Made by a program: the position numbers and the translations under genes
Virus record (IMG/VR): IMGVR_UViG_3300013010_000030
Location: 1 to 40,014 of that record
DNA from: a virus
Strand: one strand, 5' to 3'
Length of the DNA: 40,014 bases
Notes under the pieces: model-generated
Seen by the model: the letters and a program-made list of their open reading frames with translations, nothing else
Database searches by the model: none
Told to the model about the DNA's origin: nothing
Part shown: one piece after another, positions 24,059 through 34,874 of the stretch
Position numbering within the stretch: position 1 is the stretch's first letter
Layout: the number at the start of each line of letters is the position of its first letter

Positions 24059-24102
24059 GCCCCTCTCTCAGCCACAATGGTTGGGAGGGGGGCTTTCTTT
24101 TT
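24059..24102 (+). terminator. Intrinsic terminator of the first early unit
   Basis: A 15-base stem with three G-U pairs (GCCCCTCTCTCAGCC with GGTTGGGAGGGGGGC), loop ACAAT, then TTTCTTTTT. Begins seven bases after the preceding stop. Confidence 0.9.
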
Positions 24103-25033: not shown

Positions 25034-25066
25034 TGTACTATCAACTTAACGAAACAGGAGAACACA

Positions 25067-25393
25067 ATGTGTGACACAAACTGGTACCAAATACGCAGAG
25101 AATACGAAAACTATGCCCTAATTGACTGGGAAAACGGTGACATAGACAAGTCAGAGGACGGCATATTCACCTACGCCACACAAACCGCTGACAGCAGCCA
25201 CTGCGTCATCTACTACGGCTACCAACGTGAACTATGGGCTGACAGCCAAGACATACGCGACTACGAACAGGACGCTATTGACTGTGGTCACGAAAGTGTT
25301 GCAGAAATACAGCAATACTGCGTGTACATGGCTCTACAAGACGCTATCCGCGAGACCCTTGACGAACTATTAGCAGAGGAGACAACAGCATGA
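25067..25393 (+). CDS. Acidic early protein, uncharacterised
   Basis: 108 residues, strongly acidic (DWENGDIDKSEDGIF, ELWADSQDIRDYEQDAID, ETLDELLAEETTA). First gene behind promoter P2. The acidity and size recall DNA-mimic or anti-restriction proteins, but there is no specific motif and this is only a possibility. Stop overlaps the next start (ATGA). Confidence 0.65.
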   Translation: MCDTNWYQIRREYENYALIDWENGDIDKSEDGIFTYATQTADSSHCVIYYGYQRELWADSQDIRDYEQDAIDCGHESVAEIQQYCVYMALQDAIRETLDELLAEETTA

Positions 25394-25534: not shown

Positions 25535-25681
25535 ATGAGCAGATATGTTTTTAATAGTTCCGGTGAACTAACGCATTGCGGTACTAAGATCACATGGAAA
25601 GACTGCACTAAAGGACACGCTGATTGTTTCGTAAGCGTGTGCAGTGTTTGTGGTCTTAGTGACTTTGACTGTGACTCCTGA
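25535..25681 (+). CDS. Cys-rich microprotein before the WhiB gene
   Basis: 48 residues (MSRYVFNSSGELTHCGTKIT ... CSVCGLSDFDCDS) with six cysteines and two histidines, including a CxxCG knuckle. ATG follows TTGGAGGCGTAAC. Probably metal-binding. Its stop abuts the WhiB-like start, so the two are likely co-translated. Confidence 0.65.
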   Translation: MSRYVFNSSGELTHCGTKITWKDCTKGHADCFVSVCSVCGLSDFDCDS

Positions 25682-25682
25682 C

Positions 25683-25895
25683 ATGGAGTGGATGGATAAC
25701 GCTTTATGCCGTGAAGTTGATTACGAATTATTCTTCCCCGATGCGGGAGGTAGTAGTAAAACAGCACGAAAAGTATGCGATAAATGCGAGGTCAAGACTG
25801 AATGCTTGGCCTTTGCACTCACTTTCCCTAGCATGATCGGTATATGGGGAGGCACAACAGAGAAACAAAGACGACTAATGAAACAGGAGGCATGA
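25683..25895 (+). CDS. WhiB-like iron-sulfur transcription factor
   Basis: 70 residues carrying the complete WhiB signature: a first Cys in MDNALC, then ARKVCDKCEVKTECLAFAL supplying the other three, followed by GIWGGTTEKQRR, the G(V/I)WGG turn and basic tail. WhiB proteins bind a [4Fe-4S] cluster, contact the primary sigma factor and redirect transcription; they are confined to actinobacteria and their phages. This is the strongest host clue. The length is near the minimum for the family. The start is either this ATG, which follows the previous stop by one base, or one three codons later with GGAG upstream. Confidence 0.88.
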   Translation: MEWMDNALCREVDYELFFPDAGGSSKTARKVCDKCEVKTECLAFALTFPSMIGIWGGTTEKQRRLMKQEA

Positions 25896-25896
25896 C

Positions 25897-26208
25897 ATGG
25901 AAGTTATATACAAAGACGGAAGCATGTCCGAATTTGATGAGCGTGGATCATTTCATAACGGTGGTCTCGCTATCGAACGGCTGCGTCTTATCACGGCTAA
26001 AAGTGCGTTAAAGATTTACATTAACACAGAAGGCAAAATGCAATTAACACGTAACGGGGCGCAAAACGCTATCGTTAATGTGATTGAGCCTTTGACTGGT
26101 AAGAAGTATAAGCGTTCGATGAAGGGTAAGCAGGAGGCTCTTGATGATTGCCTTGATTTGCTTGCCAAGTTGGAGCATGAGGCTGTTATTTATGGAGAAG
26201 AAGATTAA
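25897..26208 (+). CDS. Small early protein, uncharacterised
   Basis: 103 residues, ATG after AAACAGGAGGCATGAC. The first half is beta-rich (MEVIYKDGSMSEFDERGSF, LKIYINTEGKMQL), the second helical and basic then acidic (YKRSMKGKQEALDDCLDLLA). Downstream of WhiB and probably co-transcribed with it. No family recognised. Its ribosome site is embedded in the end of the WhiB gene. Confidence 0.65.
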   Translation: MEVIYKDGSMSEFDERGSFHNGGLAIERLRLITAKSALKIYINTEGKMQLTRNGAQNAIVNVIEPLTGKKYKRSMKGKQEALDDCLDLLAKLEHEAVIYGEED

Positions 26209-26212
26209 CCTC

Positions 26213-26241
26213 TTGACCTAAGTATCAAGATAGTGTAGTAT
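26213..26241 (+). promoter_or_regulatory. Early promoter P3
   Basis: TTGACC, 17-base spacer, TAGTAT. ATAGTGTAGTAT over the -10 box differs by one base from the P1 core ATAGTGTACTAT. Leader carries AAACAGGAG before the ATG at 26276. Confidence 0.82.
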
Positions 26242-26275
26242 ATGTATATCAAATCAACCAAACAGGAGAAACAAC

Positions 26276-26923
26276 ATGAACACATTCAAAGCAGGAGACA
26301 GAGTAAAAGTAGTCAACTATCCAGAGCATGTACGCAACGGAATGGAAGCGACAGTACATATAAACCAACCTACGGCAGGAGAGGCCGTCCATAGTTACTT
26401 CATTGACTTCGATGACACAGTAAGTTTGTGGATGCAGACACGCTACCTTGAACTAATCCCTACTATGCCTAAACCTCTTCCACCTAAAGATGACTACGCT
26501 GGCATGTCACTAGAAGAACAGGTCGCTGAACTTACAGATGATCTGTACCAAGTGTCTCGTTCTTATGTTGCTGCCAGTACACATAGAGACAAACTTCAAC
26601 ATGACATTGACTTTTTCACAGAAACAATGCGCGATGTCAAAGATGTTGAGGGCTGGTGTGATGACGGAACCAATAAAATCATTTGGCAACTTAACGATGG
26701 TTTTAATGTTCACTACATTGAGCCTTTCCAGCAAGAGCACGAGGTTGAGTACGAGATCACAGCATCAATCAGTACTTCAGGTACAGTCATGGTTATGGCT
26801 TCATCTCAAGAGGCTGCCGATGAATTCTTTGCTGACGACCCTGAGTCTTACATAACTCCAGAAGAACTCGCTAAAGAAGCAACATACTATGGATGGGACC
26901 ACATCGAAGTAGAAGTTATTTAA
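26276..26923 (+). CDS. Early protein with SH3-like N-terminus
   Basis: 215 residues. Residues 1-62 (FKAGDRVKVVNYPEHVRNGM ... TRYLELIP) have the shape of a small SH3/KOW-like barrel. A helical section follows (LEEQVAELTDDLYQVSRSY), with two further alpha/beta stretches (EYEITASISTSGTVMVMAS, EELAKEATYYGWDH). Acidic overall. First gene behind promoter P3. Function unknown; nucleic-acid or ribosome contact is a guess from the barrel. Confidence 0.65.
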   Translation: MNTFKAGDRVKVVNYPEHVRNGMEATVHINQPTAGEAVHSYFIDFDDTVSLWMQTRYLELIPTMPKPLPPKDDYAGMSLEEQVAELTDDLYQVSRSYVAASTHRDKLQHDIDFFTETMRDVKDVEGWCDDGTNKIIWQLNDGFNVHYIEPFQQEHEVEYEITASISTSGTVMVMASSQEAADEFFADDPESYITPEELAKEATYYGWDHIEVEVI

Positions 26924-27361: not shown

Positions 27362-27376
27362 CTCCTTACCCGACCG

Positions 27377-27414
27377 CCCCTATCCAGCACGACATGGCTG
27401 GGTAGGGGTTTTTT
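27377..27414 (+). terminator. Intrinsic terminator
   Basis: CCCCTATCCAGC pairs with GCTGGGTAGGGG (one G-U), loop of eight bases, followed by TTTTTT. A short TCGGGT/ACCCGA hairpin (27354-27373) precedes it. Also lies close to the end of the leftward HNH gene. Confidence 0.92.
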
Positions 27415-29291: not shown

Positions 29292-29505
29292 TTGACATAA
29301 GACTGTGGGGGGCGTAGGTTAGCCTGCGTCCCCTCACAGAAAGAAACAGGAAATCATAGTGTAGTTCTATAAGAGCCAAGGCATACCCAAACTGGCGTTG
29401 TTTGTATTGGGGAGACGACTGCGTAGCATGACGGAGGAAGCACTACGCTCGTGAAGGCCAAGGCTAGGTAGGGCGACTATGAAAAAAACAGGGAAAGGAA
29501 AAAAC
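29292..29505 (+). promoter_or_regulatory. Long structured leader of the helicase gene, possible promoter
   Basis: A possible promoter TTGACA, 17 bases, TAGGTT opens the gap. A large hairpin follows (29304-29338; TGTG...CACA closing, CGTAGG/CCTGCG inner stem), without a U-tract. Two more stems follow, CAAAC/GTTTG (about 29389-29405) and GCGTAG/CTACGC (29421-29448), together with two GCCAAGGC copies (29375, 29457). The density of stems suggests a functional RNA leader rather than spacer. Confidence 0.5.
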
Positions 29506-30714
29506 ATGACAGAGATTCTAGAACAATTACAGTTATCAGCCTTATACCATGCAAGTACTAGCAACAAGAACGCAGAAACAGTATTCAGTATTGTTGATGT
29601 TGCAGACTTTGAACTTGGTAAGCAACAAAGTATCGCTGAGATTATTGTGAAACTACTTGTTGAAAATAAAGTAGATCAAATGGCTGTCGCTAGTGAAGCA
29701 TCTAAACATGCCAAGGGTTTAATGACTTGGTTCATGGTGAGTGTGAAAGAAGAGTTGTATAGCACAGCAACGTATTGTGCTAACGGTGTTCGTGAAGCAG
29801 CGAACCGTAGGCGTTTAGAGTCAACACTTAACAGGGCTTTAAGCATGTCTGTGAATATGAATCGTGACGTTGATGAGATTCTTGCAACTCTCACTACAGA
29901 ACTTGACGCCACTCACGCAAACATATCTAGCGGATTAACGACAGTTGATTTCGATGATGTCATTAATGCGCAGGATGATTTACGTCCGTGGATTATGCCT
30001 AACATGCTACGAACTAATGAGCGCATGATTATTACTGGGCCTGAAGGTGGTGGTAAGAGTGTTCTCGTTGCACAAATGTGTCTAGGCGCATCTATGGGTA
30101 TCAACACGCTGTCAGCAGGGCTGGATAAACATGAGCCGTTACGAGTGCTAATGCTTGACGTTGAGAACGACCGACTACAAGTGCGTAACAACATGCGAAA
30201 GATTTACCCGACACTACGAGAAATGAATGACGTTCAACCTAGCATAGAGTGGATAGATTGCCAGTACACGGATCTATCTGATCCTGTTGAGCAGCAAAAA
30301 GTTGTTCGTATTGCTAAAGAAAAACGACCTCAACTCATGTATATGGGTTCTCTGTATCGTCTTGCTCCTGAAGGAGACAAGGTTGATGCAGCGTTCACAC
30401 ATATTTCACGGACAGTAGATCGTATTCGTTCTGAAACAGGTTCAAGTGTTTTGCTGGAGGCTCACGCTGGGCATGGTTTGAGTAATGATCGTAACGGTAT
30501 GCGTCCTTACGGTTCATCTATGTGGTTACGTTGGCCTGAGTTTGGTTTTGGAATGGTTAGACATAAGCAATCAAATAATATAGAGTTAAAGAACTGGCGT
30601 GGAAATAGAAGTGATGATCGCCAGTGGCCTACGGGACTACGCCGTGGAAGCGTATTACCGTGGCAACCAATAATGAATGATGAATGGGAAGCACTCTACG
30701 GAACAGCCGACTAG
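29506..30714 (+). CDS. DnaB-like replicative helicase/ATPase
   Basis: 402 residues. The N-terminal 110 residues are helical (SALYHASTSNKNAETVFSIV), like the DnaB N-terminal domain. The RecA-type core has Walker A GPEGGGKSVLVAQ (about 178-190), Walker B RVLMLDVEND, then a YMGSLYRLAPEGDK region, LLEAHAGHG with a catalytic-type His, and WLRWPEFGFGM near the end, as in AAA_25/RepA-like helicases. It should unwind DNA at the fork; no primase domain or polymerase is nearby. An ATG nine codons upstream (29479) is possible, but this one has AGGGAAAGGA at the right distance. Confidence 0.82.
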   Translation: MTEILEQLQLSALYHASTSNKNAETVFSIVDVADFELGKQQSIAEIIVKLLVENKVDQMAVASEASKHAKGLMTWFMVSVKEELYSTATYCANGVREAANRRRLESTLNRALSMSVNMNRDVDEILATLTTELDATHANISSGLTTVDFDDVINAQDDLRPWIMPNMLRTNERMIITGPEGGGKSVLVAQMCLGASMGINTLSAGLDKHEPLRVLMLDVENDRLQVRNNMRKIYPTLREMNDVQPSIEWIDCQYTDLSDPVEQQKVVRIAKEKRPQLMYMGSLYRLAPEGDKVDAAFTHISRTVDRIRSETGSSVLLEAHAGHGLSNDRNGMRPYGSSMWLRWPEFGFGMVRHKQSNNIELKNWRGNRSDDRQWPTGLRRGSVLPWQPIMNDEWEALYGTAD

Positions 30715-30730
30715 AAACAGGGAGAACAAA

Positions 30731-32759: not shown

Positions 32760-33060
32760 TATCAACAATGTCTGATGCCTTATGGCGAACAAGTGGATTG
32801 TGCCTGTTAGTTTTATCTGAATAATATTTGATGAGGGCTTTAACTTTTCGTTCGCTGATGTCAAAGGCTTCCGCTATTTGACCAGTTGACCAGCCCAGTA
32901 CTTTAAGTTCAAAACAAGTGGTAGCGATTTGGTTGACGAGTCTGTCTATGACTTCTGATTTGATTCCTTTTATTAGTTCAAGTCTGGCTCGTGGATCGGT
33001 TTCTACCTCTAGAGGATTAAATAGTTCATTGATGGACTGATGATTGACATAGTGATACAT
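32689..33060 (-). CDS. HTH regulator, leftward, divergent from the Rad52-type gene
   Basis: 123 residues. GWSTGQIAEAFDISERKVKA (about residues 57-77) is a clear helix-turn-helix; upstream helices (ARLELIKGIKSEVIDRLVNQ) may dimerise. The first ATG of the long frame is rejected because its upstream codons overlap the rightward gene. Like the HNH gene at 27.8 kb, it has no Shine-Dalgarno before its ATG and may be leaderless. The 3' end overlaps the HNH gene by 71 bases. Position suggests a repressor or activator of the rightward promoter it faces. Confidence 0.7.
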   Translation of the reverse strand: MYHYVNHQSINELFNPLEVETDPRARLELIKGIKSEVIDRLVNQIATTCFELKVLGWSTGQIAEAFDISERKVKALIKYYSDKTNRHNPLVRHKASDIVDISYLVSKSGVGLASPPNPTPPLA

Positions 33061-33072
33061 AGAGAGTAAAGT
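33044..33072 (+). promoter_or_regulatory. Promoter of the recombination unit
   Basis: TTGACA, 17-base spacer, TAAAGT. It overlaps the start codon region of the leftward HTH gene, so binding by that regulator or collision could control it. Leader has an AGGTGATAGAA ribosome site. Confidence 0.85.
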
Positions 33073-33109
33073 ACACCATGTAACTACAAACAGGAAATAG
33101 GTGATAGAA

Positions 33110-33565
33110 ATGATTACATCAAGGCAGCAAGAAATCCTTCTCAAAGGAATAAATGGTGAGCGTATCGCTCAACGTAAAGGCGGTGGAGGGCGTAGCCTTT
33201 CTTACCTAGAAGCATGGGATGTAAAAGCCCACATGAACCGCATCTTCGGTTTCCTTAACTGGTCATCAGATGTCAGTATCGCTGAATTAGCATACGAAGA
33301 AAACTCTGACGGTCGCTGGAACGTAGCCTACAAAGTAATCCTTACCCTCAAAGTTAACGGAGCCTCTTATACAGAAGCAGCAGTAGGGTCTTCCACGCTA
33401 CCATCTAGAGGAGAAGCACACGACATGGCAATCAAAACCGCTGAGTCAGATGCTTTCAAAAGAGCAGCAATAAACCTTGGTGACCAGTTCGGCCTATCGC
33501 TATACAACAATGGCTCAACAGCGCCAGTAGTTAAACAAACACTCGTGGAACCGATAGGAGAATAA
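33110..33565 (+). CDS. Rad52-type single-strand annealing protein
   Basis: 151 residues: RQQEILLKGINGERIAQRKG, SYLEAWDVKAHMNRIFGF, then VSIAELAYEENSDGRWNVAY, a GSSTLPSRGEAHDMAIKTAE segment and FKRAAINLGDQFGLSLYN. The AHMNRIFGF...W and ESDAFKRAA..LG.QFGLSLY blocks are hallmarks of Rad52/Rad22-like annealing proteins. It anneals single strands made by the nuclease encoded next. The ATG is preferred over a GTG three codons upstream because AGGTGATAGAA is a ribosome site that would be cut by the GTG start; the same site recurs at 34.59 kb. Confidence 0.83.
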   Translation: MITSRQQEILLKGINGERIAQRKGGGGRSLSYLEAWDVKAHMNRIFGFLNWSSDVSIAELAYEENSDGRWNVAYKVILTLKVNGASYTEAAVGSSTLPSRGEAHDMAIKTAESDAFKRAAINLGDQFGLSLYNNGSTAPVVKQTLVEPIGE

Positions 33566-33566
33566 T

Positions 33567-34514
33567 ATGAGCCTCAACGAAGAAATACAACGCTCAGTAA
33601 TAGATGCGTTAGCAGCCCAAGAAAACAGAACTCCACGCACCATGCAGTCCCGTGAAGGCATCCTTGGACCATCAGACATTGGGTTCTGCCGACAGAAAGC
33701 AACCCTCGTATCCAAGCAGACAGAGCCAACAGATGATCCACCTAAATGGTCGGCTGCCGTAGGGACAGCGATGCACACCTACATTGAGGCTGCACTTAAA
33801 AAGAACCTTGGATGGTTAGTAGGAAGCATTGACCAGATACGTACCACCGCTGAACTACCAAGTGGTGCAAAAATATCTGGACACCCTGACATTGTTGTTC
33901 CAGAATCAAACATGGTGTTAGACATTAAAACAGTCAACGGATTCCAATGGATTAAACGCAACGGACCCTCCATGTCACACAAATATCAGCGTCACTTGTA
34001 TGCGATGGGATGCGTCCAGTCAGGACTATTCGACCCAGAGAAACCCGTGTGGGTAGGAAACGTGTACTTTGACAGGTCAGGTAAAGAAGGAACACCCATA
34101 GTGTTCATTGAAGAGATGGATAACAGCCTCACCGCTGAAATAGATCAATGGGTAGAAGACGTTATATATGCAGTCAAAAATAACCAAGACGCATCACGAG
34201 ACGTAGCAGCAGCGGTATGTGAGCAAATCTGCGAGTTCTTCACTATCTGCCGTGGAGGGTTAGAAGTCAACGATGGGCAAGAACTCATCCAAGACGAATA
34301 CCTCCTATCTACTATAGAAATGTATGTCGCTGGTAGGGACATGGAAAACGAAGGCAAGCAAATGAAGAAAGAAGCCTCCGAAAAACTATCCAACGTCAAC
34401 GGCATAACACAAACCCACCAAATAAGATGGGTACACGTAGGTGCATCATCCATGAAAGCCTACGAACGCTCAGGCCACGACCGACTAGATGTTCGGAAAC
34501 GCAGAACTTCCTAG
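33567..34514 (+). CDS. Cas4/RecB-like Fe-S PD-(D/E)XK exonuclease
   Basis: 315 residues. A Cys in IGFCRQK (about residue 43) and the cluster CEQICEFFTICRGG (about 216-228) are placed like the four [4Fe-4S] ligands of Cas4 and AddB-type nucleases. The nuclease core is AVGTAMHTYIEAAL, GHPDIVV (Asp) and VLDIKTV (D-x-K), with a QRHLYAMG helix after it. It should resect double-stranded ends to feed the annealing protein encoded one base upstream. It is a recombination exonuclease, not a CRISPR part: no Cas gene or array is present. The stop lies inside a following hairpin. Confidence 0.85.
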   Translation: MSLNEEIQRSVIDALAAQENRTPRTMQSREGILGPSDIGFCRQKATLVSKQTEPTDDPPKWSAAVGTAMHTYIEAALKKNLGWLVGSIDQIRTTAELPSGAKISGHPDIVVPESNMVLDIKTVNGFQWIKRNGPSMSHKYQRHLYAMGCVQSGLFDPEKPVWVGNVYFDRSGKEGTPIVFIEEMDNSLTAEIDQWVEDVIYAVKNNQDASRDVAAAVCEQICEFFTICRGGLEVNDGQELIQDEYLLSTIEMYVAGRDMENEGKQMKKEASEKLSNVNGITQTHQIRWVHVGASSMKAYERSGHDRLDVRKRRTS

Positions 34515-34592
34515 CGGATTCCTCCTGTTTCTGCTAGGATAAACGAGCGGTCCTCAGTTTCCACCTGTTTCCTGAGGACCGCTCCCTATTTT
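34510..34592 (+). ncRNA. Candidate two-hairpin regulatory RNA with anti-Shine-Dalgarno loops
   Basis: Hairpin 1 is CCTAGC/GCTAGG (34510-34515, 34533-34538; one more T-A pair outside), loop GGATTCCTCCTGTTTCT. Hairpin 2 is the perfect 13-base terminator stem, with CCTGTTTC in its loop. Both loops are complementary to the AAACAGGAG leaders of early genes: ATTCCTCCTGTTT matches 24461-24473 over 13 bases. Whether a separate RNA is made, or the 3' end of the nuclease mRNA serves, cannot be told from sequence. Confidence 0.4.
34545..34592 (+). terminator. Strong intrinsic terminator
   Basis: GAGCGGTCCTCAG and CTGAGGACCGCTC form a perfect 13-base stem with a 14-base loop, followed by CCTATTTT. Ends the recombination unit. 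Confidence 0.9.
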
Positions 34593-34604: not shown

Positions 34605-34874
34605 ATGACTGAAACAATAAGACAATGTTGGGCTTTCCATAAGCACGGTTCACGATGCGAACACCCCGCTGGACACCCCGGAAACCACATGGTTTCAAAA
34701 GAATGGGACGACCTCGACTGCGCCACACCCGGAGAATCAGAACCGGGGGCGTATGAAAAAACACGTGTGGCAGCACCTATTGAGACGCATGAGCGAACAA
34801 TTAAATGTATCGCTTGTAGTCATGCTCACCGTAATGCTGAATGTAAATGCGGTTGTCACGAGTTCATAGGCTAA
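34605..34874 (+). CDS. Cys/His-rich zinc-binding protein
   Basis: 89 residues with two knuckles: CWAFHKHGSRCEHPAGHPGN near the start and CIACSHAHRNAECKCGCHEF at the end. The CxxCxHxH...CxCGCHEF pattern is one I know from actinophage small proteins of unknown function. The ATG follows AAGGTGATAGAA, the same extended ribosome site as the Rad52-type gene; an in-frame GTG lies inside that site. Its stop overlaps the glycosyltransferase start (TAATG). Confidence 0.68.
   Translation: MTETIRQCWAFHKHGSRCEHPAGHPGNHMVSKEWDDLDCATPGESEPGAYEKTRVAAPIETHERTIKCIACSHAHRNAECKCGCHEFIG

Follow-up and report, generated by a model that had tools for sequence, protein, structure and literature searches.

Directly behind the Cas4/RecB-type exonuclease gene of a phage recombination unit stand two hairpins whose loops are complementary to the ribosome sites of early genes, and the question raised by this locus is what such an element does. 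The window analyzed here is an IMG/VR virus record, taken over its whole length of 40,014 bases. A sequence-only reading had inferred that early genes could be silenced through these loops by a recombination-unit transcript or its processed 3′ end. That proposal is supported, and the element is likely a phage-encoded antisense RNA that turns down early genes; a discrete RNA, its pairing within the cell and the sign of its effect (repression) all remain inferred, with no expression data available for the phages that carry it. A WhiB-like protein encoded at 25644-25895, judged from reading of the open reading frame, suggests an actinobacterial host.

Results

Two hairpins follow the exonuclease gene

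The two hairpins claimed by the sequence-only reading behind the Cas4-like gene were both confirmed, and their coordinates are collected in Table 1 together with those of the surrounding genes, promoters and leaders. The exonuclease stop codon (TAG at 34512) falls within the 5′ arm of hairpin 1 (HP1). Folding of the hairpin region yields -47.5 kcal/mol versus -30.0 +/- 3.5 kcal/mol in shuffled sequences (z = -5.1). A core, CC(T/A)CCTGTTTC, is common to the loops of HP1 and hairpin 2 (HP2); the stems are unlike. In the near-identical contig L003, a change of GGA to AGA lengthens the HP1 stem to 10 bp and leaves a loop of 11 nt, TTCCTCCTGTT.

The label of terminator that HP2 had received proved weak and unsupported. 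An intrinsic terminator calls for a GC-rich hairpin with an immediate U-tract, and this criterion is unmet, as the 13-bp hairpin is followed by the tail CCTATTTTAA, which contains no U-tract. Relatives show no consistent U-tract behind the hairpin either. Good U-tracts are found elsewhere in the window, at the hairpins of 24059-24093 and 27376-27409.

The gene behind the element encodes an 89-aa Cys/His-rich protein without a match in Pfam or PHROG, for which six homologues share 26 invariant columns. It is conserved beside the hairpins and might be a partner protein of the RNA.

Table 1 Positions of the features discussed, in bases of the window
Feature	Position	Strand	Description
Candidate promoter P1	24413-24441	+	TTGACT-17-TATAGT; consensus scan
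Leader/ribosome site, first gene behind P1 (24475-24657)	24461-24473	+	13 nt antisense to loop 1; duplex -20.3 kcal/mol
Candidate promoter P2	25005-25033	+	TTGACC-17-TAGTAT; consensus scan
Leader/ribosome site behind P2 (gene 25067-25393)	25051-25060	+	10 nt antisense to loop 1; duplex -17.2 kcal/mol
Ribosome site of gene 25897-26208	25880-25890	+	11 nt antisense to loop 1; duplex -19.4 kcal/mol
Candidate promoter P3	26213-26241	+	TTGACC-17-TAGTAT; consensus scan
Leader/ribosome site behind P3 (gene 26276-26923)	26260-26268	+	9 nt antisense to loop 1; duplex -13.5 kcal/mol
Ribosome site of 89-aa open reading frame (start ~30731)	30713-30721	+	9 nt to loop 1, 8 nt to loop 2
Candidate promoter, recombinase-exonuclease unit	33044-33072	+	TTGACA-17-TAAAGT; consensus scan
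Rad52-type recombinase leader	33088-33103	+	AAACAGGAAATAGGTG; 8-nt match; duplexes -11.4 (loop 1) and -13.7 (loop 2) kcal/mol
Rad52/22-type recombinase gene	33110-33565	+	Pfam PF04098, E=1.4e-25
Cas4/RecB-type exonuclease gene	33567-34514	+	PHROG 35747, E=1e-61
HP1	34509-34539	+	7 bp; TCCTAGC-GGATTCCTCCTGTTTCT-GCTAGGA
HP1 loop (loop 1)	34516-34532	+	GGATTCCTCCTGTTTCT; antisense to early leaders
HP2	34545-34584	+	13 bp, perfect; GAGCGGTCCTCAG-TTTCCACCTGTTTC-CTGAGGACCGCTC
HP2 loop (loop 2)	34558-34571	+	TTTCCACCTGTTTC
89-aa Cys/His-rich protein gene	34605-34874	+	conserved directly behind the element

The loops are antisense to early ribosome sites

The antisense matches of 13, 11, 10 and 9 nt that had been claimed for early ribosome sites were all confirmed as stated, as was the match at 30714 (GAAACAGG). 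Among 218 hairpin loops of the window (stem of at least 6, loop of 9-22, both strands), no other matches an early leader as well as loop 1, whose 13 nt compare with 9 for the runner-up. The motif CCWCCTGTTT, counted on either strand of the window, is seen four times versus 0.22 expected, and the four sites are the two loops and two leaders. Leader matches of loop 2 are only 8 nt long in the window, and the window's recombinase leader fits the loop more weakly than do the leaders behind other promoters. One further stretch that matches loop 1, AGAAACAGGA at 29342-29351, is intergenic with no obvious start codon close by.

The hairpin stem is conserved by pairing in relatives

Relatives were gathered by searches with the glycosyltransferase, the exonuclease and the small Cys/His protein, and their gene order is the same as that of the window. 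In approximately 27 uncultured contigs, the exonuclease stop codon is followed at once by a long hairpin that is rich in GC and has a pyrimidine-rich loop, mostly of 11-17 nt, and the Cys/His gene is usually next behind this hairpin. HP2 is the conserved core of the two-hairpin element. Among 23 distinct HP2 hairpins from relatives, each of the five innermost stem positions is occupied by three to four different kinds of Watson-Crick pair. That is to say, the stem is preserved by pairing, through compensatory change, and not by sequence.

Three relatives (L004, G012 and G022) lack the element, and in L004 and G012 the next gene starts at the exonuclease stop codon. Element-bearing relatives also present a promoter-like sequence directly before the recombinase, and in most further relatives found by the recombinase search the gene is not preceded by a promoter of its own and such a hairpin is mostly missing. 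The hairpin being mostly missing where the recombinase has no promoter of its own, the element and the promoter-leader seem to travel together. Contigs L247 and L249-L260 are of this kind, with a recombinase gene seemingly internal to an operon, no promoter of its own and no hairpin. No equivalent hairpin was found in the stretches examined of isolated phages with related recombination genes (Tank, BruhMoment, Kithara, Mojorita and ReT1v-2). An exact collection-wide search with the 14-mer of the HP2 loop returned a flood of unrelated matches.

The HP1 loops of many relatives have a conserved C-run of their own (CCCCCC, often followed by GT; L007, L154, L156, L157, L158, L163, L168, L170, L171 and L178), which sits in quite different stems and for which no convincing leader targets were found. 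In L010 and L011, such a C-rich HP1 loop can pair with a G-run of the HP2 5′ arm as an alternative fold, which is absent from the window.

Loops and early leaders co-vary across phages

Loops and leaders that change independently in relatives would have refuted the sequence-only reading. This test was run, and on the whole the change is joint: by computation, loop and leader co-vary, and this co-variation is restricted to early genes. Across phages, the loops track the own-leader variants GAACAGGAG, GAAACAGGAGAG, AACAAGGAGAAACC, ACGGGAGGCA and GAAACAGGTG. The G015 loop, GGTTTCTCCTTGTTC (also given as GGTTTCTCCTTGTTCCC), matches over 14 nt, twice, leaders containing AACAAGGAGAAACC and has further matches of 12, 10, 9 and 9 nt. 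The G016 loop, TTTGCCTCCCGT, corresponds to three leaders with ACGGGAGGCA(A), an unusual ribosome site. Matches to the own leader reach 12 nt in G006, 11 nt in G017 (two) and 10 nt in G010 (two). G023 combines GAAACAGGAGAG with CTCTCCTGTTTC over 12 nt, and G006 and G017 combine GAACAGGAGAG with CTCTCCTGTTC, so that the two versions differ by an extra base that occurs in loop and leader alike. L153 and L154 combine GAAACAGGTG, at the exonuclease start, with CACCTGTTTC, and in L157 the loop CCATCCCT faces the recombinase leader AGGGATGG.

When loops were swapped among 10 phage groups, early leaders were better fitted by their own loop (permutation p = 1e-5 by length, 3e-4 by duplex energy). The same test on late minus-strand leaders of the 10 groups gave p = 0.54 and 0.38, respectively. 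For the recombinase leader alone, examined in 16 groups, the own loop matched a mean of 7.7 nt versus 6.1 nt for the others (p = 3e-5; p = 1e-5 by duplex energy), and omission of the related groups G006 and G010 left p = 7e-4 by length and 1e-5 by energy. Related contigs are not fully independent, so these permutation p values are approximate. In six of eight contigs, the element loop is the single best match among 64-314 hairpin loops, and matches of at least 9 nt lie at a start codon in 33 of 48 cases on the plus strand and 6 of 13 on the minus strand.

The correspondence is not without exceptions. The own loop fits the recombinase leader poorly in G018, G019/L173, L171, L189 and L238, and in G007 the loop gained a mismatch with the leader unchanged, which shortens the match from 12 to 10 nt. 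The Shine-Dalgarno core accounts for part of each match.

The recombination unit is the most frequent predicted target

Counting of matches shows that in relatives the loop is most often complementary to the leader of one of the two genes just upstream, recombinase or exonuclease, a feature of feedback that the earlier reading had not foreseen. The Rad52-type recombinase leader is the target in G006, G007, G010, G015, G017 and G023; this gene lies two genes upstream of the element, behind a promoter-like sequence and with a leader of ~25 nt. The exonuclease leader itself is the target in G016, L153 and L154, and more weakly in L157. The remaining targets are genes that come first behind additional early promoters (P1-P3 of the window; 22879 and 23559 in G015).

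Discussion

Proposed mechanism

Under the model we propose, the RNA end of the recombinase-exonuclease unit would fold into stable hairpins that present a single-stranded loop of 10-14 nt able to base-pair with early mRNAs across their 5′ leader and Shine-Dalgarno region. The main targets would be the unit's own leader and those of other early operons that have similar promoters and short leaders. When the unit has been transcribed to its end, the loop, as part of either a processed 3′ fragment or the long mRNA, may pair with these leaders in trans, and possibly in cis. Such pairing would keep the ribosome off, and the duplex may be exposed to RNase III. The predicted outcome is negative feedback on the recombination proteins together with a timed shut-down of early genes. 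Negative feedback is proposed because the unit's own leader is the commonest target, and control of other early operons would be added to it. Action in trans is favored because the best matches of the window and of G015 lie behind other promoters; cis action like that of icaR is not excluded.

Alternative explanations

The rival that survives best, albeit an unlikely one, is pairing purely in cis between the 5′ and 3′ ends of one mRNA, whereby the recombination transcript would bind its own leader with the loop at its 3′ end, as in icaR, and other leaders match only through sharing a promoter-leader cassette. The recombinase/exonuclease leader is indeed the most frequent target, and icaR provides a precedent (PMC3868564). 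However, the longest matches (24461 in the window; 22879 and 23559 in G015) lie behind other promoters 8-10 kb upstream, and the window's recombinase leader matches less well than the leaders at these sites.

It is very unlikely that the hairpins instead control the downstream Cys/His gene in cis by masking or exposing its ribosome site or by attenuation. In favor of this, HP2 ends ~10-20 nt before the Cys/His start in the window and several relatives, and L010 and L011 offer the alternative fold between the HP1 loop and the HP2 5′ arm. Against it, the window has no alternative fold, and the loop tracks distant leaders and ignores the Shine-Dalgarno sequence of the downstream gene (in L153, CACCTGTTTC stands before AAGGAG; in L160, CACCTGTTTC stands before GGAGG).

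We give as little weight to mimicry of the 16S rRNA anti-Shine-Dalgarno tail, by which the loop would bind ribosome sites generally. Loop 1 (GGATTCCTCCTGTTTCT) does resemble the 16S tail. The sequence CTCCTTTC is also found within the loops of L159 and L161. Mimicry needs neither conserved bases outside the Shine-Dalgarno core nor discrimination between early and late genes and is therefore disfavored: the conserved pairing exceeds the rRNA core, with loops that follow the A(A)CAGGAG, AACAAGGAGAAACC or ACGGGAGGCA of the leaders, and the own loop is not preferred at late genes.

A role as transcription terminator or stabilizer of the mRNA 3′ end, with the loop sequence incidental, draws on the strong GC-rich stem behind a gene and is likewise very unlikely, given the lack of U-tracts described above and a loop that is conserved in type and co-varies with leaders. 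Finally, a DNA-binding protein site present at the leaders and, reversed, at the hairpin can be all but ruled out: the leaders do share a repeated motif, like operators or stoperators, but in one phage after another the opposite-strand copy is found unpaired, in the loop that caps a long perfect stem, a placement for which DNA recognition has no need.

Relation to known RNAs

The preferred reading, a phage antisense RNA, can be compared with described systems. Scanning against all Rfam families (cmscan) gave nothing in the window at gathering thresholds and nothing in the element region and its relatives at E<=5, which places the element itself outside Rfam; its mode of action, inferred, would be akin to c4, to icaR pairing and to autoregulatory RNAs of 3′ untranslated regions. 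Rfam and the literature that could be searched bear out the earlier reading, which knew of no actinophage RNA of this kind. The c4 antisense RNA (P1/P7) is a phage RNA that pairs, probably via its loops, around the ribosome site of a phage mRNA (PMC12197685), and the loops of the present element share this complementarity to phage mRNA ribosome sites. In contrast to c4, the element sits behind its main target gene, hits several early leaders and belongs to phages of actinobacterial type.

In icaR of Staphylococcus aureus, a pyrimidine motif of the mRNA 3′ region binds the Shine-Dalgarno sequence of the same mRNA, stops initiation and creates an RNase III substrate (PMC3868564). Pairing of a pyrimidine-rich 3′ region with a Shine-Dalgarno region is the common feature; icaR, however, is bacterial, with a short UCCCCUG and one target, whereas here a hairpin loop offers 8-14 nt to several early phage targets. 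With transcript extents inferred, complementarity of the icaR type is present at the recombinase leader in the six contigs named above and at the exonuclease leader in L153, L154 and G016; the window is weaker at 8 nt. The autoregulatory small RNAs OppZ and CarZ resemble the element as RNAs from an operon's end (3′ untranslated region) that feed back on their own operon (PMC7398697). They differ in being RNAs of Gram-negative hosts with a chaperone-dependent mode.

The actinobacterial 6C RNA (Rfam RF01066) is alike in its two stem-loops and in the CCCCCC loop that HP1 has in many relatives, and differs in that the HP2 loop of the element has no C-run. Its covariance model found no match at the element in 14 records. 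Identity with 6C was rejected, as a C-run of about six in both loops is required: HP2 is without one in relatives, and neither loop has one in the window. A sub-threshold 6C match (27.6 bits, E = 0.0025) does occur in the early region of the G015 contig, at 26183-26261 (L191 6183-6261), and contains CTAACCCCCCGTGGG, which resembles the HP1 loops of relatives.

Significance

We consider the two-hairpin element a likely case of a previously undescribed RNA switch for early phage genes, an inference made from sequence alone and without RNA data. If this is true, a large group of uncultured phages of actinobacterial type would possess a conserved antisense regulator that is absent from Rfam, recognized through the co-variation of an RNA loop with scattered ribosome sites, and phage recombination genes would be linked to feedback control by RNA.

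A parallel in the start-associated sequences of cluster K mycobacteriophages

Cluster K mycobacteriophages carry a 13-bp start-associated sequence (SAS), GGGATAGGAGCCC, at many start sites, with its role left open as "RNA or protein" and one opposite-strand copy noted in three genomes (PMC3203893). Two later papers, from 2024-2025, still describe this role as "ill-defined" or "unverified" (PMC11373665, PMC12699233), and term searches of both found no mention of an antisense hairpin. RNA-seq of Adephagia, from 30 and 210 min of infection and from the lysogen, has been published (PMC11373665). The SAS resembles the targets described here as a repeated, over-conserved sequence at early ribosome sites (PMC3203893). 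In Adephagia and Angelica (K1), the opposite-strand copy (GGCCTCCTATCCC) is exactly the loop of a hairpin of ~20 bp, which in Adephagia lies at about 58,660-58,720. A hairpin loop antisense to a repeated start sequence is present both in the window (13/11/10/9 nt) and in K1 (GCCTCCTATCCC versus GGGATAGGAGCCC). Anaya, Validus, Niklas and Efra2 have the identical K1 loop on a stem that varies with pairing largely kept, and in Amelie the loop reads GCCCTCCTATCCC. The hairpin region has matches in 173 phage records, and in 126 of these the match spans most of the region. The K1 element differs from that of the window in its apparently unrelated sequence and in its position, which is at the right end of the genome in the interval separating genes 92 and 93 and not behind an exonuclease.

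No anti-SAS hairpin was found in TM4 (K2), Keshu (K3), Kratio and OkiRoe (K5), Unicorn (K6), Aminay (K7) or Nergal and AnnaSerena (EF); cluster EF (AnnaSerena) has its own start sequence (PMC7302621). The parallel is therefore real for K1 and does not yet explain the SAS in general. Adephagia has been isolated and infects the laboratory strain M. smegmatis mc2 155, and the one SAS that it carries on the opposite strand forms the loop of a conserved hairpin, so that the function of the SAS, open since 2011, becomes testable in this phage. A bolder reading, which on balance we would stop just short of endorsing, is that actinophage start-associated repeats are targets of a phage hairpin RNA with an antisense loop. 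This arrangement would have arisen at least two times (in the present group and in K1) and would form a common, tunable off-switch for early operons that is driven by their own transcription.

In DarthP (L222 30380-30560) and Ekdilam (L229), the homologous hairpin is kept and its loop has drifted to CCTCCTTCCCC; despite the drifted loop, DarthP still has 17 start sequences of the ATAGGAG type. At the right end of Adephagia and Angelica (L214 33683, L215 33635), the anti-SAS hairpin is intergenic or lies under an annotated hypothetical gene, depending on the K1 record, and the short genes annotated over it may possibly represent over-annotation of an RNA locus.
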